Shown in pieces: positions 42,014-64,000 of a stretch of 64,000 bases of DNA. The stretch is from Macrophomina tecta (lineage: Eukaryota; Ascomycota; Dothideomycetes; Botryosphaeriales; Botryosphaeriaceae). The position numbers were made by a program, and so were the translations under genes. Each line of letters opens with the position of its first letter. The first letter of the stretch is position 1. A model generated the notes under the pieces. That model worked only from the letters and a program-made list of their open reading frames with translations, had not been told where the DNA came from and did not search any database. Location: NCBI GenBank assembly GCA_024180945.1, contig JAKSGN010000010.1, forward strand, positions 652,303 to 716,302, given 5' to 3'.

Positions 42014-42502
42014 TATTATAGCGTAGCCTCTATAGGGTTAGGAAATAGCAGAATAAGGTAGTAAGTAGAAAGCTCGGGTACGGTATAGAAAGAACTTATA
42101 CGTACTTACATAAAGTATATAACGCTAAGATAGTACTCTTACTACTTCGAAGACGCTCGGACTAGAATACTATAGAGTACTTAGAGTAGAATAAGCTACT
42201 CTATCTACTTCTAAGATTACCGCCCTCCCGAGGAATAGAGTAGATAGATTAAAAACTAGATTATAGATATTTTTCTACTAGTATATAAACTACACTCTTT
42301 AGATAGCTTTAACCTTCGTGGTTAACTTTAATAATAATTTAGTATATTATTAGTAATACGGCCTTTATATATAGTACTTAGTCTTATTACGTATTTAACT
42401 TACTCTTACTTTCTTCTTATACCTACTTAAGAAAACCCTTCTCGATAGATTTTCTTTCTTTTTAGTATTTAGATTTTTAGAGGTAGAGGCCCGCTTGTTA
42501 TA
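42014..42502 (+). repeat. RIP-decayed gypsy LTR
   Basis: Aligns along its length to the intact LTR, with the best-kept block being the TATATAAAC / CACTCTTTAGATAGCTTT region near 42280, and extensive C-to-T and G-to-A change. It ends TTGTTATA where the intact copy ends CGTTACA. Confidence 0.85.
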
Positions 42503-45500: not shown

Positions 45501-46261
45501 GGTTATTATTTATACTTATTACTCTTATTACTTTATTAGGCGGTATCTAGCTTTATAGTATTATCTTCTTCTTATATATAGCGTGGCTATAAGAGACGTA
45601 AGGTATTAGCTCTATAGTTTTTCTTATATTTCTTTAATTAGCGCTTAAAGAGACGGTTATTATATTTAATAGCTAGCTTAATAAGCTTATCTAGGATTTT
45701 AGGGTCGTCTTATATTATAAATTAATCTTTAACCCTATTCTTAAGTCCTCGATAGTAGTAGTCTATAAGGGTATAGTTAGACTAATTATTTAAGTACGCT
45801 ATAGCCTTCTAGAACTCTATAGTATAGTCTACTACTAAGGTCTTTTAGTAGATATTTATAATAGCTTATTAGGCTTTATTAACTTTATCGAGGTCTTTAA
45901 AGCTCTACTTAATCTAAGCTATAAAGTATTTATAGCTACTAAAAATTTTTTTAGTATTCTTTTTACGTGTCTCTAGTTCTTTCTCTATTCGGTCTCTAAG
46001 GTAGGGCTCGAACTATTATACCGTAATATTATAGAGGTAGGTAGTGGCGAATATTATCTTTTTATTATTAGTAGAGAAATCTCTAGAGTTAAAGAAGAAG
46101 TATAGATTAAATTATAAAAGAAAGATCTAGAGCTTCTTTTAGTTACTATAGAATAGGTCTAGTTTAGCTATTTTCGTACTTCTATTAGGGGGTTAAGTTA
46201 TCGTAGATACTAGAATATATACTAGCACCGAAGTATAGGCTACTAGAATAGCTTAGTTATA
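42503..46261 (-). mobile_element. Inverted, RIP-decayed second gypsy element
   Basis: Reading the minus strand, RNase H remnants lie next to the junction at 42503 (IAFY, and further on GGTCGAAACCGATGC for VETDA near 42620). The reverse-transcriptase motif VYLDDIIIY is intact at 43038-43064, and more decayed protease and gag follow toward 46000. CpA and TpG are nearly absent while CpG is kept, so decay is by CpA-directed C-to-T change. The 3' end, including integrase and LTR, is missing, cut at the junction with the plus-strand LTR. Confidence 0.75.
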
Positions 46262-46930: not shown

Positions 46931-48598
46931 ATGGCAAACGAGCATTTTTATCATTTGGCGGAGCATCAGGTCGCGGTGTGCAAGGAGTGCAGGCACGCCG
47001 TGTGGCCGGATCAGGTGGAGGGGCATTTACAGGGCAAGCATCACGGCATGCCCGGGAAGGAGGCGGAGGTCATTGGAGACGAGGTCAGGGCGTGGCCCCG
47101 ATTGATCAGATTCCCCGGGCAGTTTGAGGTGCCGCAGAGCGTCAGCAGACCGATTCCGGAGTTGCCGTTGCACGAAGATGGGTTGTTATGCCGGTTAGAG
47201 GCAGGTAGGTGCGCGTATATTTGCCGGGACAAGGTGACGATAAAGAAGCATTGGCGGAACGAGCATCAGTGGTCAGCAGGCGGCAGCCGGGCCGGAGGAG
47301 GGTCAGGTAAGAGCAAGAGCGATAGAGTAGAGAGACGGTTTTGGGAGGGGGCGAAACCCGTTCATTGTCAAAGATTTTTCACCAGCCGGCACGGGTCGCA
47401 GTATTTTGAGGTGCAGCAGTCGGAGGAGGACGCAAGCGAACATCAGGCCCGGCGCAGCCGCAATGAAGGGGATGACCGCGGCAGCAGGGCGACGTGGACC
47501 CGGGTGTGGCAGCAGATGCAGAAACAACTCGAAGAGGCCGAGAAGGCGGCAGCCGCGATCATTCAGGACGCCGAGAGGGATCAGGCGAACCCGTGGTTGG
47601 ACCGGACGAAGTGGCAGCAGTATTTGGTCAACAAGAACCGCGAGGATTTATTGCGGGCCGTCAGGGAGCCGGGTGGCGGCGATGACAACAAAAACAAGAG
47701 GAGGTGGAGGGCCCCCGGCGACGACGAAGAAGAAGAAGACGACCCGTACAAGCCGATTGAGATGACGGTGTGGCAGGCGATGGAGGACGTTGCCCGCATC
47801 AGTCAGAAGAGCGTGGCGAAAAGGGCAGGCGTATCGATGCGGATGCAGGCGATCAGGACGGAGAAGTATCAGAACCGGTATCAGCCGTTGCAGCCGTATT
47901 TAGACGAGGAGTCGATCAAGGACCGGGTCCGGCCGTGGGAGCAGATATTAATGTTTTTCATCAGGACGCAGCGGGAGCACGATTGGGACAGCCCGGGGTA
48001 CAGGTTCACCCGCAGTCAAGAGGAGGCATTTATCAGATTGATGAATGAGGCCGAGAAGGTAGCAGGAGGTAAAGGGGGGGAAGACGGCAGCGGAACCGAG
48101 GACGAAGAAAACGACGATGACGATGAAGAAACCAGCAATACCGATAACAAAGAAACCGATGAAGCCGACGAGAGCGACGATAACGGCGACGGCGATGATG
48201 ACGACAGTAGTCAACCGCAGAAGTTAACCCGCATTCAACGCGCGTGTTTGGATTTTTGCATGGAGTTGTTAAATCAGCGATTCGCCGCGTGCGAGTACGA
48301 AAGCGCGTCGGTGTGCGCCGCAGCCGTATTGGGGGTTGACCCGATGGGTGATAGTTGGAGAGGCCCGGACACGTACACGTCGATTTTGTCGGCGTTGATG
48401 AAGGTGGCGCATTTCATGGTGATTCAGAAAGCATTTGAAATCGCAACCCCGGCGGAGGAGGACGAGCGGTATAGCCCGAGCGCAAGGCCGTGCAATTTCG
48501 AGGATAGCGGGTATGAAAGCAGCAGCAGCAGCAGCAGCAGCAGCGGCGGCGGCAGCGGCGGGGGCAGCGGCAGCGGCGGGGGCAAGCGGCGGAAGTAG
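46931..48598 (+). CDS. TLH unit 1, N-terminal part (OrsD-like zinc fingers)
   Basis: A 555-residue frame from ATG 46931. It starts with a C2H2 finger (CKECRHAVWPDQVEGHL, then HH) and a second Cys/His block (RCAYICRDKVTIKKHWRNEH), the pattern of the DUF3505/OrsD-like family. An acidic, repetitive stretch follows before FEDSGYESSSSS. It ends in a Ser/Gly simple-sequence tract and a stop. Comparison with unit 3, where the homologous frame is continuous, shows this is the first half of a longer protein; one frameshift inside the AGC/GGC-rich tract (about 48515-48596) separates it from the 48435-51977 frame. That tract is prone to sequencing or replication slippage. Leu codons are almost all TTG or TTA, reflecting the lack of CT on this strand. 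Confidence 0.75.
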   Translation: MANEHFYHLAEHQVAVCKECRHAVWPDQVEGHLQGKHHGMPGKEAEVIGDEVRAWPRLIRFPGQFEVPQSVSRPIPELPLHEDGLLCRLEAGRCAYICRDKVTIKKHWRNEHQWSAGGSRAGGGSGKSKSDRVERRFWEGAKPVHCQRFFTSRHGSQYFEVQQSEEDASEHQARRSRNEGDDRGSRATWTRVWQQMQKQLEEAEKAAAAIIQDAERDQANPWLDRTKWQQYLVNKNREDLLRAVREPGGGDDNKNKRRWRAPGDDEEEEDDPYKPIEMTVWQAMEDVARISQKSVAKRAGVSMRMQAIRTEKYQNRYQPLQPYLDEESIKDRVRPWEQILMFFIRTQREHDWDSPGYRFTRSQEEAFIRLMNEAEKVAGGKGGEDGSGTEDEENDDDDEETSNTDNKETDEADESDDNGDGDDDDSSQPQKLTRIQRACLDFCMELLNQRFAACEYESASVCAAAVLGVDPMGDSWRGPDTYTSILSALMKVAHFMVIQKAFEIATPAEEDERYSPSARPCNFEDSGYESSSSSSSSSGGGSGGGSGSGGGKRRK

Positions 48599-51500
48599 TG
48601 GTGGCGGTAGTAGGAGCAACAGCCGCAACGACCGGACCGGACAGCTCGGCAGGAGCAGTTTGCAGTGGGTGAACAAGATGATGGACGATTTCATGGTCCG
48701 CGGCAGCGACAGCCCGATGCAGTGGTGGTTGGATTTGCGGGCATACGGGATGAAGATTCATTTCAACACGACGGCGAAGGGGCACGTTGGGTGGAGGAAC
48801 AGGGACGTGTTGGAGTACAAGAACGTATCGTTCAGCATGGCACAGTTCCGCGGTATGGTGCACCGGTTGGCACAGACGACGGCGCAGGTGTTGGTGGAGG
48901 ATTTGTTGTTTTGCAAAAGCCGGCGGGAGGTGCCCGCGGTGCCGTGGCATTCGATGCATGACGACCCGACAAACGGCCGTCGAGGGTGGAATTTTTTGCA
49001 GGATCAGCGCAACAGATTCCCCGTGGACGGGAGGTCGTGGTTGTTCGAGCAGATTATGCAGAACGGCGCGGTCAGAAGGCGGTTCACCCGGCAGGGGACG
49101 GCGTCGGGGTTGAGCCGCGAGGCCGCGTTGGATTGGATGGGCCGCGTGGCCGCGTTCAAGGAGAAGTTGTTGGTGTTGATGCATATCACGGGCGGGCAGC
49201 CGGGGAGAGGCCCCGAGATATTAAGCATCAGGCACAGCAACACAGCCGAGGCAGGGCACCGGCACATTTTCATCGAGGACGGCATGGTCGTGTTTGTGAC
49301 GCGGTATCACAAGGGGTACGCGTTGCAAGGGGACGTCAAGATTATTCATCGATATTTGCCCCGCGAGGTGGGCGAGTTATTGGTGTTGTATTTATGGTTG
49401 ATTTTGCCGTTTCAGCAGCGAATGGAGGTGTTGATGCGAGGCAATCCGCAGGAGCAGATGCAGGGGCAACAACAGCAGGGGCAACAACAGCAGAGGCAAC
49501 AACAGCAGAGGCAACAACAGCAGAGGCAACAACAGCAGAGGCAACAACAGCAGAGACAGAGGCAAAATCAAAGGCAAAAGCCGCCGCAGTTGCCGCCGTT
49601 GTCAGCGCATTTGTGGGCGCCCGAGCCCGGTGGCAAGAGGTGGACGACAGAGCGGATGAGGCAGGCGATGAAGCGTGAGACGGCCGCCGGTTTGGGGCAT
49701 GAGATTACCGTGCAGGCGTACCGCGACATCGCAATAGCAATCAGCAGGCAGTGGATCAGAGGACCGACGGCATTCAGGCAGGATAATGGGGAAGGAGATG
49801 ATGAAGGGCCGCAGGATGAAGACGATGCGGCAGCAGCGATTGCCGATGCGCAGGCAGGACACACGTCGCACGTAGCAGGCATTATATACGCGCGAGGCAT
49901 CATGGAGCAGTTGGGATGGGTGGCGGAGCGGAGGCAGAAGTTTCGAGCGTGCAGCATCGATTGGCATCGATTTTTGGGGTTCGAATCGACCCGCCAGGCA
50001 GACGAACAGTACGAACGGGACGAACAGATGGACGGCAAGATGATAAGCAAGAAGCGCAAGCGGTGCCCGTTCGAGGATGAGGCCGACGAGGAGCGGTTGA
50101 ACCGCCGGACCCGGTTGAGGAAGATGAACGCCGAGGAGCAGTTGAAGCAGTTGGTAGGCAAGGAGGCGGTGTTCCGCAGCGTGCAGAAGCCGGCGATGGA
50201 GGCAATAAAGGCCGGGTATAGCCCCGTGGTGGCGGTGATGCCGACGGGGGCGGGCAAGAGCGTGTTGTTCATGTTGCCGGCGTGGGCAGAGCCCGGGGGC
50301 ACGACGGTGGTAGTAGTGCCGTTAAAGTCGTTGCGCAAGGATATGAGGCGGCGGTGCAAAGAGGCGGGCGTAAGGTGCGCGGTGTGGGGCGGCAGGCAGC
50401 AGCCGGACGCGGAGTCGATTGTATTGGTGACGCCGGAGGCGGCGGTGGGCGAGGAGTTCGGGACGTTTTTAAAGCGCATCAGGCGGACGAGGCAGTTGGA
50501 CCGGATCGTCGTGGACGAATGTCACGTCGTGTTGAACGACCGAGTGGATTTTCGCAAGCATTTGCAGCGATTGGGCAAGTTGGCGGGGGCGGAGACGCAG
50601 ATGGTGTTGTTGACGGCGACGTTGCCGCCGGCGGAGGAGGGCAGGTTATACAAGCGGATGGGGTGGATGGCGGACGAAGTGAAGATGTTTAGGGGGTCGA
50701 CGGTGCGCAAGAACGTGCAGTATAGGGTGGTAGGTGGGAAGGGGAGCGGCAGGAAGGAGCAGGAGGATTTGGTGACGGAGTTGGTGGAGCAGCAGTTAAC
50801 GGCGTCGGCGGAGGGCAAGGTGGTGGTTTATTGCAAGACGAAGGGAGAGGTCGAGCGGTTGGTAGGGGCAGGCCGGTTCGTTTGCGAAGCATTTCACGCC
50901 GATATAAGCGATCAGCGCAAGGACGAAGTGTTGGAGGATTTCCGGGCAGGCCGAGAGCGAGTGGTGGTGGCGACGAGCGCGTTGGGCATGGGGATTGATA
51001 TTCCGGACATTAGGTTGATTGTGCATGCGGGCGAGCCGCGCAGCATGATGGATTACGGGCAGGAGAGCGGCAGGGCAGGGAGAGACGGCAGAAGGAGCGA
51101 GGCAATTGTGGTCAGAGGGGGAGGTGGGGAGGTGGAGGATAAGTTGGTCGAGCAGTATACGGATCCGGCAAGCGGGCAGTGCCGCCGTATCATCATGGAC
51201 GAGTATTTTGATGGCCGGAGGGGGCGAATTTCATGCGAGGATGGCGAAGAATTGTGTGATAATTGCGGGGGAGACGGGGAAAGGCGAGGAGCAGAGGTAG
51301 AGCAGGCGGAGAGGGAGCAAATAGAAAGGGGGCAAATGGAGAAGGAGCGAATAGAAAGAGAGCGGGTGGAGCGGGAGCAGGTAGAGCGGGAAAAGAGCAG
51401 GGAGATATTCCGTAGGCAGGAGCAGCAACGGGCCCGGCCGTATATAAGGCAGGCGGCGAGGGCGCAGGAGGAGAGGCAGGAGTTGGAGGAAGTAGAGCGG

Positions 51501-51977
51501 CAATTGCGGCGGTGGAAGCGGGTTTGTGGGGTGTGCAAGGCGGTAGGGTGGCCGGCAGAGCATGACGTTGGCGATTGCATGACGGAGAAGGGACAGCAGG
51601 CAGAGGATGAAAGGCGCAAGGCAAAGCGGACGATCAGGTACGACCGATATTCGGGGTGTTTTAGATGCGGGGCGCCGCAGAGCGTGTGTGATGGGTGGGA
51701 GAGCAACGACAGCGGCGGGTGGAGAAGGACGGGGCGGGAATGTCAGTACAGTGGAGTATTGTTGGGGGCATTGTACGGGATCAAGCACGGGTACGGGGCA
51801 GTTTGGAGAAGGTGGTTGCAGCAGATAGTAGAGAATGGAGTAGATGCAGAGCAGGAGGAGAGTGTGGTCGGGTATTTAGGGCGAAAGCGGGATACGGCAG
51901 AGGTGGAGAGTAATAATTTAGTTTGGGAATTTTTATGGTTGGCGCGGCGGGTAGATAGCATAGGCGGGGAGGGGTGA
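48435..51977 (+). CDS. TLH unit 1, recombinase-like and RecQ-like helicase part
   Basis: The functional part of this frame starts after the frameshift, near 48600. First comes a tyrosine-recombinase-like region: GRGPEILSIRH (Arg I), TRYHKGY (Lys), VQAYRDIAIAISR (Arg II) and GHTSHVAGIIYARG, where His and Tyr are nine residues apart as in XerD. A Gln-rich minisatellite (49450-49570) interrupts it. Then the RecQ core: PTGAGKS (I), VVPLKSL (Ia), VVDECHVVL (II), LLTATLP (III), VVYCKTKGE (IV), TSALGMGIDIPDIR (V), ESGRAGRDG (VI) and a RecQ-type zinc end (CRRIIMDEYFDG, CDNC). A long charged coiled coil and a Cys-rich tail (CGVCKAVGW, CFRCGAPQSVC) close the protein. RecQ helicases unwind DNA 3'-5', and TLH genes sit next to telomeres in several fungi. 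Whether this one is translated depends on the frameshift. Confidence 0.85.
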   Translation: MKSQPRRRRTSGIARAQGRAISRIAGMKAAAAAAAAAAAAAAGAAAAAGASGGSSGGGSRSNSRNDRTGQLGRSSLQWVNKMMDDFMVRGSDSPMQWWLDLRAYGMKIHFNTTAKGHVGWRNRDVLEYKNVSFSMAQFRGMVHRLAQTTAQVLVEDLLFCKSRREVPAVPWHSMHDDPTNGRRGWNFLQDQRNRFPVDGRSWLFEQIMQNGAVRRRFTRQGTASGLSREAALDWMGRVAAFKEKLLVLMHITGGQPGRGPEILSIRHSNTAEAGHRHIFIEDGMVVFVTRYHKGYALQGDVKIIHRYLPREVGELLVLYLWLILPFQQRMEVLMRGNPQEQMQGQQQQGQQQQRQQQQRQQQQRQQQQRQQQQRQRQNQRQKPPQLPPLSAHLWAPEPGGKRWTTERMRQAMKRETAAGLGHEITVQAYRDIAIAISRQWIRGPTAFRQDNGEGDDEGPQDEDDAAAAIADAQAGHTSHVAGIIYARGIMEQLGWVAERRQKFRACSIDWHRFLGFESTRQADEQYERDEQMDGKMISKKRKRCPFEDEADEERLNRRTRLRKMNAEEQLKQLVGKEAVFRSVQKPAMEAIKAGYSPVVAVMPTGAGKSVLFMLPAWAEPGGTTVVVVPLKSLRKDMRRRCKEAGVRCAVWGGRQQPDAESIVLVTPEAAVGEEFGTFLKRIRRTRQLDRIVVDECHVVLNDRVDFRKHLQRLGKLAGAETQMVLLTATLPPAEEGRLYKRMGWMADEVKMFRGSTVRKNVQYRVVGGKGSGRKEQEDLVTELVEQQLTASAEGKVVVYCKTKGEVERLVGAGRFVCEAFHADISDQRKDEVLEDFRAGRERVVVATSALGMGIDIPDIRLIVHAGEPRSMMDYGQESGRAGRDGRRSEAIVVRGGGGEVEDKLVEQYTDPASGQCRRIIMDEYFDGRRGRISCEDGEELCDNCGGDGERRGAEVEQAEREQIERGQMEKERIERERVEREQVEREKSREIFRRQEQQRARPYIRQAARAQEERQELEEVERQLRRWKRVCGVCKAVGWPAEHDVGDCMTEKGQQAEDERRKAKRTIRYDRYSGCFRCGAPQSVCDGWESNDSGGWRRTGRECQYSGVLLGALYGIKHGYGAVWRRWLQQIVENGVDAEQEESVVGYLGRKRDTAEVESNNLVWEFLWLARRVDSIGGEG
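49450..49570 (+). repeat. 15-bp Gln-coding minisatellite
   Basis: Repeated units of the form CAACAACAGCAGAGG encode (Q)4R. Units 2 and 3 carry a different Gln/Glu/Gly version at the same place (57150-57250 and 62440-62545), so the linker between Arg I and Arg II of the recombinase-like region varies in length. Confidence 0.85.
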
Positions 51978-52404
51978 TGTTAGGGAGCGTCGGTGGGGGG
52001 TAGTGGCGTTTAAGGGTGGGTGTAGGAGTGCAAGGGTAGGTGTGAGGGTTGGTGTAAGTTTAGGTTAAGATAGATTGATATTGAGAGATCGAGCGCGCGC
52101 GTAAAGCAAAGAAGCCGAAGCACGGCGTACGAACGGTAAAAGCAGCGTAAAATAGATGTATGATAGGGAATAGGTGGTGGGAAAGCGCGGGGGGTGGGGA
52201 GGTAGGGTGGAGGGCGATGGGGGTTTTGTACGTTTAAAAAATCGGCAGATTTATAAGTATAAAAATTGGAGGATGGCGAGTTAGGTATTTATTAGAATAG
52301 AGAGCGCACAGGCATTATTTTACGGTATTAAAGAACGCAATAGCGTGGTTATTCGATAGTAGATTAAGCGGGGGCGATAATAGAGGCGGAGGGTAGAGGG
52401 TAGT
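51978..52404. other. 3' flank of TLH unit 1
   Basis: Non-coding and strongly G-rich on the plus strand; no CT dinucleotide is seen until the LINE begins. It probably holds the 3' untranslated region and the element end. Confidence 0.5.
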
Positions 52405-53190
52405 AATTTATTTATTTATTTATTTAGTTTAACGTCCTTCTTGAGTCAGAGACTATCAAAGACGGGCTTTAGAAGCCGTTTCTAGTTATACATTTTCTAG
52501 AGGCTCCTTGTAAAAGAAGCATTCTAGGAGAGCACAAGGAATAGTAGACTTAAAAGCCAAACGAGAGGCAGGCCTCTAAGGAGATAGTATAAGAGAATAG
52601 TAATAGAAAACAAAGGAGTGTAAGCGTCGGACGTATTTAAACCCCGTCGGGCGTGTTGTTAAGAATCCACCGGCGCGTAGATATCTTGGTTTTTCTAAGA
52701 AACTCAGCTGTTGCTTGAGCGCCTTTATTTGTAGTGAATAGGTCCGTAAGATTAAGAATAGGTTTCTCCAGAGCGTCTTTTATAGAGAGCCTTTCAGCTC
52801 TATATAAATAACAGTCTAAGAGGAGATGTCTCGGTGTTTGCTTTGCCGTACCAGAGCAGTAGCATCTATCATCCTCTACATGGTTAAAACGGTAGAGATA
52901 GGACTTGAAGTACCCGTGTCCAATCTTCAGCTGGTAGAAGGAGGAAGCTGTTTCCCTTACTGTAGTAGGGGCGATCAGCTTCCTCTTTATCTTCCAGGTA
53001 AATGCTTTACTGTAGGCTGAGCTGGGAACTGATAAGAGCTGGCTTTTCCACTCGTTGTAGAGAACTTCTTTTAGTTGCATTCCGTAGAATGCAACAGAAG
53101 TGTCTTCTGTTGTAGGGGGGATTAACGTTGCTTGTTTAGCAAGTCTGTCGGCCTCCTCATTTCCGTGCACGTTGACGTGCCCCGGAACCC
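52405..53190 (-). mobile_element. 5'-truncated LINE, RNase H and C-terminus of ORF2
   Basis: The minus-strand frame 53190-52637 encodes the end of an RNase H (VWVPGHVNVHGNEEADRLAK) and the Cys/His end of ORF2 (CYCSGTAKQTPRHLLLDCYL). A (TTTA)n tail lies at about 52406-52425, the 3' end. The truncated 5' end joins the 47-bp array at 53191 with a short overlap (CCCAAACC fits both sides). It is the only part of 46931-64000 rich in CT on the plus strand apart from two damaged patches, so it is a later insertion. Confidence 0.8.
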
Positions 53191-53284
53191 AAACCGAAAG
53201 GAGTGAATCGACCGTTATAAGGGTCGATTCAGGTCCCAAACCGAAAGGAGTGAATCGACCGTTATAAGGGTCGATTCAGGTCCC
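53191..53284 (+). repeat. 47-bp tandem array A, 2 units
   Basis: Two perfect units starting AAACCGAAAGGAG. Each holds arms TGAATCGACC and GGTCGATTCA around the spacer GTTATAAG, a near-perfect 28-bp palindrome, and ends in AGGTCCC. Confidence 0.97.
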
Positions 53285-53635
53285 ATACAAAATTAAGGTT
53301 TAGGGTTAGGGTTACGAGTACGGTCGATTGAGTACGGTCGATTCAGAAAAAAGATGTCGGATTCGCGTTAAATTAAGATATGTTGCAGAGCGCGGTTAGG
53401 CGATAAGAATTTTTGCGTATGACATGCCCGCCCGATCGCGGGTTCGAGCGTAATTTGGCAGTTGGGGTAAGTTAGGGTAAGGTTGATGGGGTAAGAGCGG
53501 CCCGAGCGCGGTAGTGGTTAAAGAGCGCGCATTCGCCGGGTAGGCACGCAGCGCGCGAACGTGCAGCAGGCGCCGAGTCAGAGAGTTAAGAGCAAGGGTT
53601 AAAGTAGTTAGTTCGATAGCAAAGGGTGGTTTCCC
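53285..53635 (+). repeat. Orphan TLH leader copy 1
   Basis: About 351 bp, from ATACAAAATTAAGG to GGTGGTTTCCC. It includes TTTAGGGTTAGGGTTA, two direct TACGGTCGATT half-site-like copies, and the rest of the leader seen upstream of TLH units 2 and 3, but no gene follows. A 47-bp array begins instead. Confidence 0.92.
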
Positions 53636-53776
53636 AAACCGAAAGGAGTGAATCGACCGTTATAAGGGTCGATTCAGGTCCCAAACCGAAAGGAGTGAAT
53701 CGACCGTTATAAGGGTCGATTCAGGTCCCAAACCGAAAGGAGTGAATCGACCGTTATAAGGGTCGATTCAGGTCCC
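53636..53776 (+). repeat. 47-bp tandem array B, 3 units
   Basis: Three units identical to array A, at 53636, 53683 and 53730. Confidence 0.97.
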
Positions 53777-54127
53777 ATACAAAATTAAGGTTTAGGGTTA
53801 GGGTTACGAGTACGGTCGATTGAGTACGGTCGATTCAGAAAAAAGATGTCGGATTCGCGTTAAAGTAAGATATGTTGCAGAGCGCGGTTAGGCGATAAGA
53901 ATTTTTGCGTATGACATGCCCGCCCGATCGCGTGTTCGAGCGTAATTTGGCAGTTGGGGTAAGTTAGGGTAAGGTTGATGGGGTAAGAGCGGCCCGAGCG
54001 CGGTAGTGGTTAAAGAGCGCGCATTCGCCGGGTAGGCACGCAGCGCGCGAACGTGCAGCAGGCGCCGAGTCAGAGAGTTAAGAGCAAGGGTTAAAGTAGT
54101 TAGTTCGATAGCAAAGGGTGGTTTCCC
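53777..54127 (+). repeat. Orphan TLH leader copy 2
   Basis: Nearly identical to 53285-53635 (single-base differences) and again not followed by a gene. Confidence 0.92.
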
Positions 54128-54362
54128 AAACCGAAAGGAGTGAATCGACCGTTATAAGGGTCGATTCAGGTCCCAAACCGAAAGGAGTGAATCGACCGTT
54201 ATAAGGGTCGATTCAGGTCCCAAACCGAAAGGAGTGAATCGACCGTTATAAGGGTCGATTCAGGTCCCAAACCGAAAGGAGTGAATCGACCGTTATAAGG
54301 GTCGATTCAGGTCCCAAACCGAAAGGAGTGAATCGACCGTTATAAGGGTCGATTCAGGTCCC
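54128..54362 (+). repeat. 47-bp tandem array C, 5 units
   Basis: Five identical units at 54128, 54175, 54222, 54269 and 54316. Confidence 0.97.
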
Positions 54363-54831
54363 ATACAAAATTAAGGTTTAGGGTTAGGGTTACGAGTACG
54401 GTCGATTGAGTACGGTCGATTCAGAAAAAAGATGTCGGATTCGCGTTAAATTAAGATATGTTGCAGAGCGCGTATGTATGATAAGAATTTTTGAGGTATG
54501 ATATGCCCGGTCTGATCGCGTGTTCGAGCTGCACGGCAGGGGTAAGTTAGGGTAAGGCTGATGGGGTAAGAGCGGCTCGAGCGCGGTAGTGGTTATAAAG
54601 AGCGCGCATTCGCCGGGTAGGCACGCAGCGCTGCAGCAGGCGCCGAGCCAGAGAGTTAAGAGCAAGGGGTAAAGTAGTTAGTTCGATTAGCAAAGGGTGG
54701 TTTCCTGCATCAACGCAGCGAAAGAATAAGCAGAGTGATAGCAGCGAAATAACGAGCATGCAGCAAGCGCAAGTCACATACGAAACAGTGAGTATTTTTC
54801 ATCATTTAGGTTAGGAGAATTTGGAGTCGTC
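54363..54831 (+). promoter_or_regulatory. Leader of TLH unit 2, indel-rich
   Basis: It matches the other leaders up to about 54460. From there to about 54820 it differs from the unit 3 leader by many short insertions, deletions and substitutions. The start ATG used in unit 3 is absent here (CACATACGAAAC in place of CAACATGGCCGAAAC). Confidence 0.75.
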
Positions 54832-57800
54832 GTGTGCAAGGAGTGCCGGCACGCGGTGTGGCCGGATCAGGTGGCAGGGCATTTGCAGGGCAGACATCAC
54901 GGCATCAGCGGAAAGAACGCAGAGGCGATCGCGGAGGAGGTCGTGGCGTTTGCCGGATTAATCAGGTCCCCCGGAGAATTTCAGGCGCCCGCAGGCATCG
55001 ACAGGCCGATCCCGGAGTTGCCGTTGCATCAGGACGGGTTAATGTGCGAGTTACAGCCCGACGGGTGCCGGTATATTTGCCGGGACAGAATGACGATGAA
55101 GAAGCATTGGCGCATCGAGCATCAGTGGTCGGCCGGCAGCCGAAAGGGCGGGTCGGGCAAGAGCAAGGGCGAGCGGGTCGAGAGGCGGTTTCAGGAAGCA
55201 GTGAGGCGGGTGCATTGTCAGCGATTTTTCACGAGCCGGCACGGATCGCAGTATTTCGAGGTGCAGCAACCGGCAGAGGAAGAGAATGGAACGCGCGAAG
55301 ACGGCAACGGCGGCAGCAACGATAGTAGCAGGGACACGTGGACGCGGGCGTGGCAGCAGATGCAGGCCCGGTTCGAGCAGGCCGAGAAGGAGGCGGCAGC
55401 CGCCGTCGTTCAGGACGCCGAGAGGGATCAGGCGAACCCGTGGTTGGAGCGGACGCAGTGGCAGAAGTATTTGGCCGGCAAGAACCGCGAGGATTTGTCG
55501 CGGTGCATCGTCAAGCCGGGCGGCGAGGAGGACGAAAAGAAGAACAGACGATGGAAGCCCGCCGATAAGGAAAAAGACGATCCGAACGAGCCGATCGAGA
55601 CGGCCGTGTGGCAGGCGATGGAGGACGTTGCCCGCATTAGTCAGGAGAGCGTGGCGAAGCGGGCGGGCGTGTCGATGCGGATGCAGGCGATCAGGACGGA
55701 GAAGCATCAGACCCGATATCAGCCGTTGCAGCCGTATATGGACGAGGAATCGATCAAGGACCGTGCCCGGTCGTGGGAGCAGGTGTTGATGTTTTTTATG
55801 CGGACGCAGCGGCAGCACGATTGGGACAGCCCGGCGTACAAATTCACCCGCAGTCAGTTCGAAGCATTCGTCAGATTGGTCGAAGAGGCAGAGCGGGAGG
55901 TAGAAGGAGGCGAAGATGGGGAAGAAAGTAACAAAGAAAACGAAGATAACGAGGAAGCAGAAGAGGAGGGAGAAGGGGAAGGCGACGAGGAAGAAAGCGA
56001 GACAAACGAGAAGGACGAAGAGAAGTGGCAAAAATTAACCCCGATTCAACGGGCATGTTTAGATTTTTGCATCGAGTTAAGCGGAATCAACGATTCGTCG
56101 AGCGAGAGTACGAGAGTGCGTTGATGCGCCGCCGTTGTTAGGAGTCGACCCGACGGACAACAGTTGAGAGGCCCGGAGACATACGGGTCGATTTTATCGG
56201 CAAGCGATCAAGGTGGCGCATTTCATGGTCATTCAGAAGGCATCGAGGGGTAGCAACGCCGGCGGAGGAGAACGACATTTTTAGCGCGAGCGCGAGGCCG
56301 TGTGGATTTCGAAGATAGTGGATACGAAAGCGGTGCTTGCAGCGGCGAGAGCAGCAGCCCCGCAGGAGCGGGTTGCAGTGGGTGAACAAGATGATGGACG
56401 ATCATGGTCTGCGGCAGCGATAGCCCGATGCAGTGGTTTTTGGATTTGCGGCGTATGGTATAAGATTCATTTCAACACAACGGCGAAAGGGCACGTCGGG
56501 TGGAGGGATAGAGATGTGTTGGAGTACAAGAACATATCGTTCAGCATGGCGCAGTTCCGCGGGATGGTACACGGTTTGGCGCAGACGACGGCGCAGGTGT
56601 TGGTCGAGGATTTGTTGTTTTGCAAAAGCCGGCGGGAGGTGCCCGCGGTGCCGTGGCATTCGATGCATGACGACCCGACAAACGGCCGGCGAGGGTGGAA
56701 TTTTTTGCAGGATCAGCGCAACAGATTCCCCGTGGACGGGAGGTCGTGGTTGTTCGAGCAGATTATGCAGAACGGCGCGGTCAGAAAGCGGTTCACCCGG
56801 CAGGGGACGGCGTCGGGGTTGAGCCGCGAGGCGGTATCGGATTGGATGAGCCGGGTTGCGGCGTTTAAGGAAAAGTTATTGGTGTTGATGCACATAACGG
56901 GCGGGCAGCCGGCGAGAGGGCCGGAGATATTAAGCATCAGGCACAGCAACACGGCGGAGGCGGGGCACCGGCATATTTTCATCGAAGACGGGATGGTCGT
57001 GTTTGTTACGCGGTATCACAAGGGGTACGCGTTGCAGGGAGATGTCAAGATCATTCACCGGTATTTACCGCGCGAGGTGGGCGAGTTGTTGGTGTGGTAT
57101 TTGTGGTTGGTTTTGCCGTTTCAGCAGAGAATTGAGGTGTTGATACGAGGCAAGCAGCAGCAGGGGCAGCGGCAGGGGCAGCAGCAGGAGCAACAGCAGG
57201 AGCAACAGCAGGAGCAGCAGCAGGAGCAACAGCAGCAGGAGCAGGAGCAGTCGCCGCCGTTGTCCGCGCATTTATGGGCAGCCGAGCCCGGGGGCAAGAA
57301 GTGGACGACGGAGCGGATGAGACAGGCGATTAAGCGGGAGACAGCAGCGGGGTTAGGGCATGAAGTCACGGTGCGGGCGTATCGTGATATCGCGATAGCA
57401 ATCAGCAGGCAGTGGATCCGCGGGCCGACGGCGTTCAGGCAGGACGATGGAGAGGGAGACGATAGCGAGCAGCGGCAGGATGAGGACGGCATGGCGGCGG
57501 CGAGCGCGGACGCGCAGGCAGGGCACACGTCGCACGTGGCGGGAATCGTATATGCGAGGGGAATCATGGAGCAGTTGGGGTGGGTGGCAGAACGAAGGCA
57601 GCAGTTCCGGGCGTGCAGCGTCGATTGGCACCGATTTTTAGGATTCGAACCGACGGGTCAGGCAGACGAGCGGAACGAGGCGGCGGATAGCAAGGCGACG
57701 AGCAAAAAGCGCAAGCGGTGCCCGTTCGAGGAGGAGGCGGAAGAGGAGCGGTTGGATCGTTGGATCCGGTTAAACAAGATGAATGCCGAGGAACAGTTGC

Positions 57801-59606
57801 GGCAGTTGGTGGGTAAGGAGGCGGTTTTCCGCAGCGTGCAGGAGCCGGCATTGGATGCGATCAAGGCAGGGCACAGCCCCGTGGTGGCAGTGATGCCGAC
57901 GGGGGCGGGCAAGAGCGTGTTATTCACATTGCCGGCGTGGGCAGAACCCGGTGGCACGACAGTAGTAGTGGTGCCGTTGAAGTCGTTGCGGAAGGATATG
58001 AAGCGGCGGTGCGATGAGGCGGGGGTGCGGTGCGCGGTATGGGGCGGCAGGCGGCAGGCGGATGCGGAGTCGATCGTGTTGGTGACGCCGGAGGCGGCGG
58101 TGGGCGAGGAGTTCGGGACGTTTTTAAAGCGCATCAGGCGGACGAGGCAGTTGGACCGTATCGTGGTGGACGAATGTCACGTCGTGTTGAACGATAGGGT
58201 GGATTTTCGGAAGCATTTGCAGCAGTTGGGCAAGTTGGCGGGAGTAGAGACGCAGATGATATTATTAACGGCGACATTGCCGGCGGCGGAGGAGAGCAGG
58301 TTGTATAAAAGGATGGGATGGAGGGCGGACGAGGTAAAGATGTTTAGGGGGTCGACGGTGCGGAAGAACGTGCGGTATCGGGTGGTTGGCAGGAAGGAGA
58401 GTAGTAGGAAGGAGCAGGAGGATTTGGTAGCGGAGTTAGTGGATCGGGAGTTGAGGGCGTCGGCGGAGGGGAAAGTAGTAGTTTATTGCAAGACGCGGGG
58501 GGAGGTGGAGCGGTTGGCGAAAGCAGGCCGGTTCGCGTGCGAGGAATTCCGGGCAGACATGAGCGAGCGGCGAAAGGACGAGGTGTTGGAGGATTTCCGA
58601 GTGGGTAGAGAACGGGTGGTAGTGGCGACGAGCGCGTTGGGGATGGGGATCGATATACCGGGCATCAGGTTGATCGTGCACGCGGGCGAGCCGCGTAGCA
58701 TGATGGATTACGGGCAGGAGAGCGGCAGGGCGGGGAGAGATGGCGGAAGAAGCGAGGCGGCCATCGTCAGAGGAGGATCAGGGTTAGGGTTCGTGGACGA
58801 TGGGAGAGGGGAGGGAGACGACGAGTTAGTGAGGCGGTACACGGACCCGGCGAATAGGCAGTGCCGGCGCATCATCATGGACGAGTATTTCGACGGCCGA
58901 ACGGGGCGAACGGGGTGCGAGGAAGGGGAAGAACGGTGCGATAATTGCGGAGACAGGGAAGGAGGGGGGGACGAAGTAGAAGAAGGAGGGGGGGACGAAG
59001 TAGAAGAAGGAGAAGGGGGGAATGTAGATGAAGATATAGAGGAATGGAGCAGCGGGGGGTAATCGAAGTAGTAGAAAAGAGAAGGCAAGCAGAGAGGGAG
59101 CAGGCAGAGAGGGAGCAGGTAGGGAGGGAGAGAGATAGAGCAGCGTTCCGCGGACAGGAGCGGCAGCGGGCACGGCCGTACGCGAGACAGACGGTGCGGG
59201 CGCAGGAAGAGAGGCAGGAGATGGAGAGAATGGAGTGGCAGTTACGGCGTTGGAGGGGTGTTTGCGGAGTGTGCAAGGCGGCAGGCCGGCCGGCAGAGCA
59301 TGGGATTGGTGATTGCAGGTCGGAAGGAGGCCGGCGGGCGGAAGGGGAGAGGCGGGAGGCGGGCCGAAGGATTCGATACGACCGGTATTCCGGTTGTTTT
59401 GGTTGCGGGGCGCCGCAGAGCATGTGCGATAGGTGGGAGAGTAATGAGATGGGCGGGTGGAGGAGGACGGGGAGGGAATGTCAGTTCAGCGGGGTTTTGT
59501 TGGCGGCGGTATACGGGATTAAGCACGGGCACGAGGCGGTGTGGAGGAGGTGGTTGCAGAAGATAGCGGCGGAGGAGGGAGTAGTAGAGGCAAACCGAAA
59601 GGAGTG
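54832..59606 (+). pseudogene. TLH unit 2: recombinase/helicase protein, broken
   Basis: Near-identical to unit 3 along most of its length but interrupted. The start ATG is lost, and the open frame is clear only from about 54832 (a GTG). About ten small indels at 56080-56450 break the frame between the zinc-finger part (to 56124) and the recombinase/RecQ part (open from about 56450 to 59062; motifs as in unit 3, plus ESGRAGRDG and the RecQ zinc end with CDNC). Another shift near 59050 moves into the coiled coil and Cys-rich tail (59044-59606). The last ~35 residues of the protein and the 3' flank are missing, because the frame runs into the 47-bp unit at 59592, which supplies the stop. The indels are clustered while the rest is clean, so a poorly resolved assembly patch is as likely as true decay. 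Confidence 0.8.
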
Positions 59607-59638
59607 AATCGACCGTTATAAGGGTCGATTCAGGTCCC
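59592..59638 (+). repeat. 47-bp unit, single copy (array D)
   Basis: One perfect unit joined directly to the truncated end of TLH unit 2. Confidence 0.95.
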
Positions 59639-60057
59639 ATACAAAATTAAGGTTTAGGGTTAGGGTTACGAGTACGGTCGATTGAGTACGGTCGATTCAG
59701 AAAAAAGATGTCGGATTCGCGTTAAATTAAGATATGTTGCAGAGCGCGGTTAGGCGATAAGAATTTTTGCGTATGACATGCCCGCCCGATCGCGTGTTCG
59801 AGCGTAATTTGGCAGTTGGGGTAAGTTAGGGTAAGGTTGATGGGGTAAGAGCGGCCCGAGCGCGGTAGTGGTTAAAGAGCGCGCATTCGCCGGGTAGGCA
59901 CGCAGCGCGCGAACGTGCAGCAGGCGCCGAGTCAGAGAGTTAAGAGCAAGGGTTAAAGTAGTTAGTTCGATAGCAAAGGGTGGTTTCCCGCATCAACGCA
60001 GCGAAAGAATAAGCAGATAGCAGCGAAATAACGAGCATGCAGCAAGCGCAAGTCAAC
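59639..60057 (+). promoter_or_regulatory. Leader of TLH unit 3
   Basis: Starts ATACAAAATTAAGG with TTTAGGGTTAGGGTTA. Unlike the orphan leaders it continues past GGTTTCCC into a further ~70 bp leading to ATG 60058. No CT dinucleotide is seen in it. Confidence 0.8.
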
Positions 60058-63000
60058 ATGGCCGAAACAGCGGAGTATTTTCATCATTTAGGGTTAGGAG
60101 AATTTGGAGTCGTCGTGTGCAAGGAGTGCCGGCACGCGGTGTGGCCGGATCAGGTGGCAGGGCATTTGCAGGGCAGACATCACGGCATCAGCGGAAAGAA
60201 CGCAGAGGCGATCGCGGAGGAGGTCGTGGCGTTTGCCGGATTAATCAGGTCCCCCGGAGAATTTCAGGCGCCCGCAGGCATCGACAGGCCGATCCCGGAG
60301 TTGCCGTTGCATCAGGACGGGTTAATGTGCGAGTTACAGCCCGACGGGTGCCGGTATATTTGCCGGGACAGAATGACGATGAAGAAGCATTGGCGCATCG
60401 AGCATCAGTGGTCGGCCGGCAGCCGAAAGGGCGGGTCGGGCAAGAGCAAGGGCGAGCGGGTCGAGAGGCGGTTTCAGGAAGCAGTGAGGCGGGTGCATTG
60501 TCAGCGATTTTTCACGAGCCGGCACGGATCGCAGTATTTCGAGGTGCAGCAACCGGCAGAGGAAGAGAATGGAACGCGCGAAGACGGCAACGGCGGCAGC
60601 AACGATAGTAGCAGGGACACGTGGACGCGGGCGTGGCAGCAGATGCAGGCCCGGTTCGAGCAGGCCGAGAAGGAGGCAGCCGCCGTCGTTCAGGACGCCG
60701 AGAGGGATCAGGCGAACCCGTGGTTGGAGCGGACGCAGTGGCAGAAGTATTTGGCCGGCAAGAACCGCGAGGATTTGTCGCGGTGCATCGTCAAGCCGGG
60801 CGGCGAGGAGGACGAAAAGAAGAACAGACGATGGAAGCCCGCCGATAAGGAAAAAGACGATCCGAACGAGCCGATCGAGACGGCCGTGTGGCAGGCGATG
60901 GAGGACGTTGCCCGCATTAGTCAGGAGAGCGTGGCGAAGCGGGCGGGCGTGTCGATGCGGATGCAGGCGATCAGGACGGAGAAGCATCAGACCCGATATC
61001 AGCCGTTGCAGCCGTATATGGACGAGGAATCGATCAAGGACCGTGCCCGGTCGTGGGAGCAGGTGTTGATGTTTTTTATGCGGACGCAGCGGCAGCACGA
61101 TTGGGACAGCCCGGCGTACAAATCCCGCAGTCAGTTCGAAGCATTCGTCAGATTGGTCGAAGAGGCAGAGCGGGAGGTAGAAGGAGGCGAAGATGGGGAA
61201 GAAAGTAACAAAGAAAACGAAGATAACGAGGAAGCAGAAGAGGAGGGAGAAGGGGAAGGCGACGAGGAAGAAAGCGAGACAAACGAGAAGGACGAAGAGA
61301 AGTGGCAAAAATTAACCCCGATTCAACGGGCATGTTTAGATTTTTGCATCGAGTTGTTGAATCAACGATTCGTCGAGCGCGAGTACGAGAGTGCGTTGGT
61401 ATGCGCCGCCGCCGTGTTAGGAGTCGACCCGACGGACAACAGTTGGAGAGGCCCGGAGACATACGGGTCGATTTTATCGGCGTTGATCAAGGTGGCGCAT
61501 TTCATGGTCATTCAGAAGGCATTCGAGGTAGCAACGCCGGCGGAGGAGAACGAGCATTTTAGCGCGAGCGCGAGGCCGTGTGATTTCGAAGATAGTGGAT
61601 ACGAAAGCGGGGGAAGCAGTAGAAGCGGCGAGAGCAGCAGGCGCCCCGGCAGGAGCGGGTTGCAGTGGGTGAACAAGATGATGGACGATTTCATGGTCCG
61701 CGGCAGCGACAGCCCGATGCAGTGGTTTTTGGATTTGCGGGCGTATGGTATGAAGATTCATTTCAACACAACGGCGAAAGGGCACGTCGGGTGGAGGGAT
61801 AGAGATGTGTTGGAGTACAAGAACATATCGTTCAGCATGGCGCAGTTCCGCGGGATGGTACACGGTTTGGCGCAGACGACGGCGCAGGTGTTGGTCGAGG
61901 ATTTGTTGTTTTGCAAAAGCCGGCGGGAGGTGCCCGCGGTGCCGTGGCATTCGATGCATGACGACCCGACAAACGGCCGTCGAGGGTGGAATTTTTTGCA
62001 GGATCAGCGCAACAGATTCCCCGTGGACGGGAGGTCGTGGTTGTTCGAGCAGATTATGCAGAACGGCGCGGTCAGAAAGCGGTTCACCCGGCAGGGGACG
62101 GCGTCGGGGTTGAGCCGCGAGGCGGTATCGGATTGGATGAGCCGGGTTGCGGCGTTTAAGGAAAAGTTATTGGTGTTGATGCACATAACGGGCGGGCAGC
62201 CGGCGAGAGGGCCGGAGATATTAAGCATCAGGCACAGCAACACGGCGGAGGCGGGGCACCGGCATATTTTCATCGAAGACGGGATGGTCGTGTTTGTTAC
62301 GCGGTATCACAAGGGGTACGCGTTGCAGGGAGATGTCAAGATCATTCACCGGTATTTACCGCGCGAGGTGGGCGAGTTGTTGGTGTGGTATTTGTGGTTG
62401 GTTTTGCCGTTTCAGCAGAGAATTGAGGTGTTGATACGAGGCAAGCAGCAGCAGGGGCAGCGGCAGGGGCAGCAGCAGGAGCAACAGCAGGAGCAACAGC
62501 AGGAGCAGCAGCAGGAGCAACAGCAGCAGGAGCAGGAGCAGTCGCCGCCGTTGTCCGCGCATTTATGGGCAGCCGAGCCCGGGGGCAAGAAGTGGACGAC
62601 GGAGCGGATGAGACAGGCGATTAAGCGGGAGACAGCAGCGGGGTTAGGGCATGAAGTCACGGTGCGGGCGTATCGTGATATCGCGATAGCAATCAGCAGG
62701 CAGTGGATCCGCGGGCCGACGGCGTTCAGGCAGGACGATGGAGAGGGAGACGATAGCGAGCAGCGGCAGGATGAGGACGGCATGGCGGCGGCGATCGCGG
62801 ACGCGCAGGCAGGGCACACGTCGCACGTGGCGGGAATCGTATATGCGAGGGGAATCATGGAGCAGTTGGGGTGGGTGGCAGAACGAAGGCAGCAGTTCCG
62901 GGCGTGCAGCGTCGATTGGCACCGATTTTTAGGATTCGAACCGACGGGTCAGGCAGACGAGCGGAACGAGGCGGCGGATAGCAAGGCGACGAGCAAAAAG

Positions 63001-64000
63001 CGCAAGCGGTGCCCGTTCGAGGAGGAGGCGGAAGAGGAGCGGTTGGATCGTTGGATCCGGTTAAACAAGATGAATGCCGAGGAACAGTTGCGGCAGTTGG
63101 TGGGTAAGGAGGCGGTTTTCCGCAGCGTGCAGGAGCCGGCATTGGATGCGATCAAGGCAGGGCACAGCCCCGTGGTGGCAGTGATGCCGACGGGGGCGGG
63201 CAAGAGCGTGTTATTCACATTGCCGGCGTGGGCAGAACCCGGTGGCACGACAGTAGTAGTGGTGCCGTTGAAGTCGTTGCGGAAGGATATGAAGCGGCGG
63301 TGCGATGAGGCGGGGGTGCGGTGCGCGGTATGGGGCGGCAGGCGGCAGGCGGATGCGGAGTCGATCGTGTTGGTGACGCCGGAGGCGGCGGTGGGCGAGG
63401 AGTTCGGGACGTTTTTAAAGCGCATCAGGCGGACGAGGCAGTTGGACCGTATCGTGGTGGACGAATGTCACGTCGTGTTGAACGATAGGGTGGATTTTCG
63501 GAAGCATTTGCAGCAGTTGGGCAAGTTGGCGGGAGTAGAGACGCAGATGATATTATTAACGGCGACATTGCCGGCGGCGGAGGAGAGCAGGTTGTATAAA
63601 AGGATGGGATGGAGGGCGGACGAGGTAAAGATGTTTAGGGGGTCGACGGTGCGGAAGAACGTGCGGTATCGGGTGGTTGGCAGGAAGGAGAGTAGTAGGA
63701 AGGAGCAGGAGGATTTGGTAGCGGAGTTAGTGGATCGGGAGTTGAGGGCGTCGGCGGAGGGGAAAGTAGTAGTTTATTGCAAGACGCGGGGGGAGGTGGA
63801 GCGGTTGGCGAAAGCAGGCCGGTTCGCGTGCGAGGAATTCCGGGCAGACATGAGCGAGCGGCGAAAGGACGAGGTGTTGGAGGATTTCCGAGTGGGTAGA
63901 GAACGGGTGGTAGTGGCGACGAGCGCGTTGGGGATGGGGATCGATATACCGGGCATCAGGTTGATCGTGCACGCGGGCGAGCCGCGTAGCATGATGGATT
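60058..64000 (+). CDS. TLH unit 3: zinc-finger, recombinase-like, RecQ helicase (partial at window end)
   Basis: One uninterrupted frame of 1314 codons from ATG 60058 to the window edge; the stop lies outside. Layout by residue: C2H2 finger Cys21, Cys24, His36, His41; second Cys/His block about 98-117; acidic Glu-rich linker about 375-420; tyrosine-recombinase-like region with Arg717 (ARGPEIL), Lys near 751 (RYHKGY), Arg in VRAYRDIAIAISRQ, His920 and Tyr929 (GHTSHVAGIVYARG), and a Gln-rich insert between them; RecQ core with Lys1049 in PTGAGKS and D1135-E-C-H1138; the frame leaves the window after motif V. It shows that zinc fingers, recombinase-like part and helicase belong to one polypeptide. 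A tyrosine recombinase would cut and rejoin DNA at specific sites; I infer this from motif order, not from a search. It is the best candidate for a functional copy here. Confidence 0.82.
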   Translation, partial: MAETAEYFHHLGLGEFGVVVCKECRHAVWPDQVAGHLQGRHHGISGKNAEAIAEEVVAFAGLIRSPGEFQAPAGIDRPIPELPLHQDGLMCELQPDGCRYICRDRMTMKKHWRIEHQWSAGSRKGGSGKSKGERVERRFQEAVRRVHCQRFFTSRHGSQYFEVQQPAEEENGTREDGNGGSNDSSRDTWTRAWQQMQARFEQAEKEAAAVVQDAERDQANPWLERTQWQKYLAGKNREDLSRCIVKPGGEEDEKKNRRWKPADKEKDDPNEPIETAVWQAMEDVARISQESVAKRAGVSMRMQAIRTEKHQTRYQPLQPYMDEESIKDRARSWEQVLMFFMRTQRQHDWDSPAYKSRSQFEAFVRLVEEAEREVEGGEDGEESNKENEDNEEAEEEGEGEGDEEESETNEKDEEKWQKLTPIQRACLDFCIELLNQRFVEREYESALVCAAAVLGVDPTDNSWRGPETYGSILSALIKVAHFMVIQKAFEVATPAEENEHFSASARPCDFEDSGYESGGSSRSGESSRRPGRSGLQWVNKMMDDFMVRGSDSPMQWFLDLRAYGMKIHFNTTAKGHVGWRDRDVLEYKNISFSMAQFRGMVHGLAQTTAQVLVEDLLFCKSRREVPAVPWHSMHDDPTNGRRGWNFLQDQRNRFPVDGRSWLFEQIMQNGAVRKRFTRQGTASGLSREAVSDWMSRVAAFKEKLLVLMHITGGQPARGPEILSIRHSNTAEAGHRHIFIEDGMVVFVTRYHKGYALQGDVKIIHRYLPREVGELLVWYLWLVLPFQQRIEVLIRGKQQQGQRQGQQQEQQQEQQQEQQQEQQQQEQEQSPPLSAHLWAAEPGGKKWTTERMRQAIKRETAAGLGHEVTVRAYRDIAIAISRQWIRGPTAFRQDDGEGDDSEQRQDEDGMAAAIADAQAGHTSHVAGIVYARGIMEQLGWVAERRQQFRACSVDWHRFLGFEPTGQADERNEAADSKATSKKRKRCPFEEEAEEERLDRWIRLNKMNAEEQLRQLVGKEAVFRSVQEPALDAIKAGHSPVVAVMPTGAGKSVLFTLPAWAEPGGTTVVVVPLKSLRKDMKRRCDEAGVRCAVWGGRRQADAESIVLVTPEAAVGEEFGTFLKRIRRTRQLDRIVVDECHVVLNDRVDFRKHLQQLGKLAGVETQMILLTATLPAAEESRLYKRMGWRADEVKMFRGSTVRKNVRYRVVGRKESSRKEQEDLVAELVDRELRASAEGKVVVYCKTRGEVERLAKAGRFACEEFRADMSERRKDEVLEDFRVGRERVVVATSALGMGIDIPGIRLIVHAGEPRSMMD

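Follow-up and report, generated by a model that had tools for sequence, protein, structure and literature searches.

A tandem array of telomere-linked helicase genes at a contig end

The stretch of Macrophomina tecta DNA analyzed here, hereafter the window, comprises 64,000 nt (contig JAKSGN010000010.1, positions 652,303 to 716,302 of the forward strand) and forms the right end of contig C10 (716,302 bases) in an assembly of 54 Mb and 37 contigs; C-numbers denote contigs of the assembly, and L-numbers are labels of extracted loci. From window position 46931 onward, it contains three tandem units of a telomere-linked helicase (TLH), and the sense strand of these units almost completely lacks the dinucleotide CT. 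Each unit encodes, in this order, an OrsD domain (PF12013), a middle part without a profile match, and RecQ-type helicase domains, as identified with Pfam and PDB profiles (both DEAD and Helicase_C were matched). The PDB matches were RECQ1, RECQ5 and BLM, with a best E-value of 1.6e-52 obtained with a six-sequence profile. For unit 3, which is truncated by the contig end, TIGR00614 yielded an E-value of 2.4e-38 and 132 bits, under its cut-off of 219.8. The frame of unit 1 is broken within an AGC repeat, resulting in the frames 46931-48598 and 48435-51977; among the helicase copies, open frames reach 1,300-1,800 codons. Further units related to those of the window are present at many other contig ends. 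Altogether, the analysis covers one genome and three helicase lineages (families 1 to 3), of which family 3 is represented by a single copy.

Searches with Pfam, NCBIfam and PDB profiles gave no match for the middle part between OrsD and the helicase, and its structure prediction was poor (predicted local distance difference test, pLDDT, 31.9). The same middle part is carried by 881-aa OrsD proteins that lack a helicase (L028:5266-7911 and L032:199-2841). The R...K...R...GH...Y spacing in these proteins resembles the motif of a Crypton-like tyrosine recombinase, and it was confirmed by no profile. A search for relatives among viral contigs found none.

CT is nearly absent from the sense strand of the helicase units

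Across the 13,248 nt of coding DNA in the three units, four CTs are present, compared with about 430 expected (observed/expected ratio, o/e, 0.01), and AG occurs 1,394 times (o/e 1.10). CT is depleted while AG is normal; thus, the lack of CT in the helicase units is confirmed to be strand-specific, as a preceding reading of the letters without database searches (the sequence-only reading) had proposed, and no equal depletion of AG was seen. That reading had described the near-absence for the whole tract from 46931 to 64000. This description applies to the helicase units, but not to a 750-bp foreign fragment and the decayed leader of unit 2: of the 65 plus-strand CTs in the tract, 55 are in the fragment, 6 in the decayed leader, and 4 are isolated (47528, 48645, 56336 and 56409). 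Similarly, its claim that the 47-bp arrays and the orphan leaders lack CT stands for the arrays and fails for the leader at 54426-54740. The zeros it had reported for 51978-52404, 59044-59590 and 59639-64000 were all reproduced by counting, and the isolated CTs it had seen in the coding DNA of unit 1 are those at 47528 and 48645. The longest CT-free run of the window extends from 56409 to 64000 (7,591 nt), compared with a maximum of 178 nt in the window region 1-46000.

We scanned all words of 2 to 5 letters and found that, in the intact families, only CT and CCA/CCT (CCW, that is, CCA or CCT) approach absence. In the coding DNA of the units, CCA is the second near-missing word, with four occurrences (zeroth-order o/e 0.03), a feature that the sequence-only reading did not contain. 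The absence of TAG from the antisense strand, on which it had remarked, follows from the absence of CTA and is incidental.

Repeat-induced point mutation (RIP) converts C to T at CpA on both strands. It acts on repeats in this genome and was considered, and rejected, as the cause of the CT loss. RIP depletes CA and TG, whereas the units keep CA (o/e 1.39; TG 0.88, TT 1.90) and lose CT on one strand only. Window regions 42001-46000 and 38001-39000 carry a strong RIP signature, with CA/TG nearly gone and TA in excess, and the distinction from this nearby RIP that had been drawn from the letters alone is therefore upheld.

Table 1. Features of the TLH tract at the right end of contig C10 (window coordinates; expected counts in brackets)
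Position	Strand	Feature	Words and remarks
46931..51977	+	Unit 1, OrsD and RecQ-type TLH gene, family 1	2 CT, 3 CCA
47528..47529	+	Isolated CT	Common to the five unit-1-type copies covering the position (window, L010, L011, L015, L017)
48645..48646	+	Isolated CT	Common to five unit-1-type copies (window, L010, L011, L015, L017)
51978..52436	+	3' flank of unit 1, CT-free	CT 0 (9.9) in 51978-52430
52437..53186	-	Foreign 750-bp fragment, sub-threshold RNase H match	CT 55 (42)
53188..54425	+	Leaders with 47-bp tandem arrays and interstitial TTTAGGGTTAGGG	CT 0 (49), CCW 13 (21.6)
54426..54740	+	Decayed leader of unit 2	CT 6 (11.4), all within 54512-54705
54742..59062	+	Unit 2 helicase gene	Stop-free frames 54742-56121 and 56285-59059
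59063..59590	+	Unit 2 DNA past the stop of the frame, partly homologous to unit 1 coding DNA	CT 0 (10.9)
59591..60057	+	Unit 3 leader	CT 0 (17.7); single CCW at 59637, none downstream
60058..64000	+	Unit 3 helicase gene, frame open up to the contig end (C10:716302)	CT 0, CCW 0

The foreign fragment lies between unit 1 and unit 2 and is 100% identical across the six places examined, including the window. Judging from the TTTA repeat that adjoins it, it is probably a 5'-truncated non-LTR retrotransposon, and the TTTA repeat that closes the 3' flank of unit 1 may be its tail. Compared with the leader of unit 3, the CTs in the leader of unit 2 have arisen by C>T and T>C changes and by indels, and the decay of this leader may in part be an assembly error. 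The only two CTs in the coding DNA of unit 2 are located in an indel-rich patch (about 56060-56480), which may reflect decay or, again, faulty assembly.

Neither protein content nor codon choice explains the missing words

In a codon control, synonymous codons were shuffled within each gene, such that the protein and the codon counts were kept. C|T across a codon boundary was observed 0 times in six genes or loci, compared with 47 times in the shuffled sequences for unit 3, 37 for unit 1, 63 for C28, 67 for C7, 57 for C21, and 23 for L034. It was not reduced in family 3 (78 observed vs 57 shuffled) or in two helicase-less OrsD paralogs (61 vs 53 and 56 vs 46). Boundary-spanning CCA/CCT was reduced in unit 3 (0 vs 35), unit 1 (1 vs 24), C28 (4 vs 51) and family 3 (1 vs 64), and was normal in C7 (64 vs 73), C21 (60 vs 64) and L034 (24 vs 21). 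These results show that the lack of the words is a matter of neither protein content nor codon choice. A codon-usage bias was therefore rejected as the cause, and the earlier statement that the bias crosses codon boundaries was borne out.

The same statement had been made for non-coding DNA, where it also agrees with the counts. CT is absent from the leader of unit 3 (0 vs 15.6 expected), from the 3' flank of C28 (0 vs 28 over 1,454 nt), and from the 5' flank of C7 (0 vs 18). The 47-bp arrays are CT-free as well, but their unique sequence amounts to just 47 bp, which makes this weak evidence. We also rejected the idea that the location at the chromosome end itself accounts for the loss, as the foreign 750-bp insert in the tract has normal CT, although this insert may be young, given that it is identical at all six places.

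Copies at other contig ends share the lack of CT

We examined the terminal 5,500 nt of 15 contig ends, that is, the end of the window and 14 others. They were picked by helicase hits, so that the counts do not represent a rate over all ends. Altogether, these ends contain one CT compared with 2,821 expected, and 8,588 AG compared with 7,711 expected; the end copies are near-identical and, therefore, do not amount to 15 independent tests. The contig ends of C1, C8 and C30 (right) also gave hits and are outside this set, as is C28, where the element stops about 1.9 kb short of the contig end. At 15 of the 15 ends, the 3' end of the sense strand points toward the contig end. At the C21 end, the sequence is continuous over tandem units for 11.6 kb without a CT; this end array (C21:1-11700; L018, L029) contains a family 2 helicase and family 1 units head to tail.

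The 14 other ends (L009, L012-L014, L016, L018-L026) terminate at the same base (..GGCGTACAAATTCA) and carry no telomere repeats. The terminal piece, about 1,533 nt long, comprises a leader and the start of a helicase gene and adjoins another leader with a helicase copy truncated at about 4,406 nt. Compared with these ends, C10 seems to stop short by one unit. No telomere repeats were found at the contig ends examined; interstitial TTTAGGGTTAGGG is present in the leaders.

The genome also contains helicase relics that are rich in TAG/TAA stops: L030 (C8:38500-42700), L031 (C20:1415900-1418900), C31:2661200-2664037 and C11:13006-17969. L030 and L031 show the RIP signature, which the end copies lack although they, too, are repeats.

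The excluded words differ between helicase lineages

The set of excluded words depends on the lineage: family 1 excludes CT and CCA, family 2 excludes CT, and family 3 excludes CCA and CCT, such that CCT is excluded in all. Family 2 comprises C7:96598-101949, the inner copy of C21 and a stop-bearing copy at C10:49-53 kb. The C7 copy, which is 94% alike to the C21 copy and shares about 41% protein identity with unit 3, contains 0 CT compared with 184 expected, and 79 CCA compared with 63 expected. Conversely, family 3 (C20:81319-86097) contains 217 CT (159 expected), one CCA (49 expected), and no CCT (36 expected). CCT was observed 0 times in the seven regions counted, with about 237 expected in sum; these regions are not independent because the family 1 regions are mutually related, and likewise those of family 2. 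The counted regions of C7, C21, L034 and family 3 were trimmed near the edges of the word-free runs. The whole open frames include six CTs for C7 (all after locus position 5953, where the helicase homology ends), one CT for C21, and two CCWs for family 3. On the reverse strand of L028 (3501-8000), the family 3 locus is also poor in TAG (9 vs 28 expected).

No words were missing in the controls, namely, the OrsD paralog beside family 3, the OrsD paralog on C21, the window's ordinary genes, and eight other helicase loci, where both CT and CCW were normal in all eight cases. Avoidance of CTRAY branch sites, which the sequence-only reading had offered as a possible cause, does not agree with these data: CT is lacking whatever its neighboring bases, and in family 3 it is retained, with CCA/CCT excluded instead. 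An artefact of base calling, assembly or composition would have to produce different missing words in different lineages within one assembly, next to a normal OrsD paralog beside family 3, together with open frames of more than a thousand codons and a low dN/dS. Even considering the indel-rich patches in some copies, such as 56060-56480, and the frequent T>G and A>G differences between copies, we regard an artefact as highly improbable.

The differences between lineages would be expected if each lineage encoded, or traveled with, a word-specific nuclease directed against competitors and had been purged of its own word, with family 1 resisting both. The word set of family 1 is indeed the union of the others, and families 1 and 2 share one tandem array at C21. 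However, the Pfam search found no nuclease domain, the host genes keep the words, and words excluded by family 1 are present in families 2 and 3, with which it coexists. Such self-immunity in a warfare between elements thus appears unlikely.

Mutation or selection as the cause of the loss

The sequence-only reading had put forward a C-to-T change at CpT as a cause. More generally, a targeted mutator could remove C at CT, and CC before A or T, from the sense strand while it is exposed, acting through deamination or through abasic sites. The loss is strand-specific and saturating, and TT is raised in the CT-free units of the window, all of which would fit a mutator. We analyzed silent changes at four-fold sites whose second base is not C; the pooled rows are not independent, as unit 1 and C28, both counted in family 1, are close relatives, and family 2 consists of C7 and C21. 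In family 1, the third base is C in 0 of 206 codons before T, compared with 300 of 857 otherwise. The third base before T is G in 147 of the 206 codons and T in only 17 (0.08), compared with 64 of 857 elsewhere. Thus, the lost C of family 1 reappears as G, not as T, and C-to-T deamination was rejected as the sole cause. Family 2 differs in that T occupies 35 of 173 of these sites before T, compared with 32 of 833 elsewhere; this partial rise indicates that transitions contribute in this family. Leucine makes up 4.3-6.0% of the family 1 and family 2 proteins, compared with 9.3% in family 3 and 8.3-11.8% in the controls, and phenylalanine is not raised.

Unit 1 and unit 3 differ by a synonymous divergence (dS) of 0.62 and a nonsynonymous divergence (dN) of 0.07 over 801 codons (the C28 row was left out of this comparison), in line with the earlier claim of a long-lasting process. 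In a neutral synonymous simulation at this divergence, 27-33 CT and 13-18 CCW were expected, compared with 0 and 1 observed. Among near-identical copies, on the other hand, 16 of 109 distinct young variants create a CT (8.3 expected) and, without two decayed copies, 5 of 46 (2.5 expected). For these counts, 35 alignments were kept, and those of at most 1,400 nt or at most 97% identity were excluded; some of the CT-creating variants may be assembly errors. New variants, thus, make CT at least at the chance rate, which is not what a C-to-T change at CpT predicts. One CT variant (CCC to CCT) is common to five copies, as are the two isolated CTs of unit 1, so that CT survives copying. CT therefore arises in young variants, yet is gone after a dS of 0.62. 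In a frame-broken relative (L035; about 140 CT expected), 21 CTs are found at positions where the outgroups have other pairs, and they result from several types of changes.

In the near-identical copies of unit 3, 42 of the 109 variants are changes to G, either from T (19) or from A (23). This bias toward G could explain the G-rich sense strand, or it could be sequencing error.

Based on the codon controls, the divergence and the young variants, we infer that the words were removed by purifying selection and not by a C-to-T mutator. The silent sites of family 1, the unraised phenylalanine, the CTs shared among copies, and the 55 CTs kept by the foreign insert, even if that insert is possibly young, all argue against a targeted mutator, which is left quite unlikely despite the partial rise of T in family 2. 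A C-to-G mutator is a conceivable variant of this explanation.

A strand-reading activity as a possible agent of selection

Because AG is abundant on the very strand that lacks CT, a symmetric property of the duplex is ruled out. A reader of the words must recognize RNA, DNA that is single-stranded, or DNA that is oriented. We tentatively favor, well short of conviction, an oriented, strand-reading activity that is matched to the lineage and acts at chromosome ends, with the words purged under selection. With less certainty, we infer that the selected trait is the passage or survival of the sense strand as an oriented track at the chromosome ends. The sense strand, with its 3' end toward the contig end at the 15 ends examined, would be the one left single after resection of the C-strand. 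RecQ-type helicases move in the 3'-to-5' direction, and the sense strand would also be the track for such a helicase running in from the end. The end-processing activity of each lineage, be it the helicase, the middle part or a partner, would stop, cut or be primed at its own word, and copies bearing the word would not be copied whole in end-to-end recombination. All words would be variants of CCT, which is contained in the C-strand repeat CCCTAA: a CCT reader relaxed at the first base would result in the CT rule, one relaxed at the last base in the CCW rule, and relaxation at both in the rule of family 1. A possible, if doubtful, extension is that each lineage of telomere elements is matched to its own strand-specific word-reading activity (for CT, CCW or both), and that word-free DNA serves as a self/non-self or track signal deciding what is copied or spared at the ends.

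Several observations weigh against a selective constraint of this kind. The internal copies on C7 and C10 lack CT although they are oriented away from the left contig end, which is the nearer one, so that a constraint at chromosome ends requires their relocation. The C10:49-53 kb copy contains stop codons and still has 0 CT compared with 129 expected; thus, loss of the frame alone does not restore CT. Single CTs are tolerated, as shown by two that have become fixed in the C28 gene, which is intact; the unit-1-type copies likewise have two fixed CTs. CCA in the 47-bp arrays of family 1 breaks the CCW rule in non-coding DNA. The telomere repeat itself is deduced from the leader because the contig ends show no repeats, family 3 is known as one copy, and no agent reading CT or CCW was identified in the analysis of this genome. 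Finally, an agent acting on RNA would account equally well for an exclusion that is confined to transcribed DNA.

Such an agent could be a CU- or CCW-specific factor, for example, an RNase or an RNA-binding silencer, that destroys or silences transcripts, with the elements having purged their sense RNA. The lack of the words tracks the sense of the genes even where copies face away from the nearer contig end (L027, L034), and the CCW-free zone of unit 3 begins past the array, as a transcript would. Codon boundaries and flanks are affected alike, and every word type suits a reader of RNA. However, ordinary genes are normal in CT and CCW, including eight of eight other helicase loci, so that the factor would need to single out the RNAs of these elements. 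Furthermore, the 11.6-kb stretch at C21 is unbroken over tandem units, with no CT-bearing gap for a promoter or terminator, and we know of no sensor of CU or CCW. Restriction at the RNA level is therefore also a doubtful possibility, nearly as likely as the activity at chromosome ends that we favor.

Comparison with known systems

We know of no gene in which one strand is kept free of a two-base word for kilobases, nor of sister gene lineages that differ in the words they exclude. Fission yeast tlh1 and the Y' helicase of yeast are further telomere-linked helicases. In Ustilago, telomerase-negative survivors show raised expression of some telomere-linked genes of the OrsD/RecQ-like type, with one gene responding in both strains and others in a single strain, and an OrsD domain is reported in UTASb (PMC10532341). 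In Fusarium oxysporum strains, TLH regions are present at many chromosome ends (PMC12857005). Like the units described here, the fungal TLH genes (UTASa/UTASb of Ustilago and the TLH of Fusarium) are RecQ helicase genes that are near-identical at many chromosome ends. Passages of PMC12857005, PMC7367193, PMC3585121 and PMC10532341 do not mention an exclusion of words, such that the distinction from these genes refers to their descriptions; a literature search of limited extent, partly on excerpts, found no published report of missing words in TLH. The exclusion bears on the role of telomere-linked helicases and points to an undescribed activity that reads one strand of nucleic acid with a specificity of two or three bases. 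The elements would have written the specificity of the reader into their own DNA, so that the reader can be sought directly.

In RNA viruses, CpG and UpA are depleted under ZAP and RNase L, with vertebrate ZAP reading CpG. There, as proposed here, a host factor reads a dinucleotide, and one strand has been cleared of it as a result; however, the case described here involves zero occurrences over kilobases, a chromosomal gene family, sister lineages with different words, and no known reader. Phages and bacteria avoid restriction sites and the sites of mRNA interferases, that is, short words are purged to escape a sequence-specific enzyme. Here, in contrast, the words are strand-specific and only two to three letters long, the organism is a eukaryote, no enzyme is known, and the CT rule touches all frames as well as the flanks. 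Chi is a polar short word that a helicase complex recognizes on one of the two strands; words of the Chi type are enriched or present, whereas the words of the telomere-linked helicases are excluded, again with no known reader. If true, the doubtful extension in which word-free DNA serves as a signal would amount to a counterpart of restriction-site avoidance that is eukaryotic and strand-polar or, alternatively, to an inverted Chi code.

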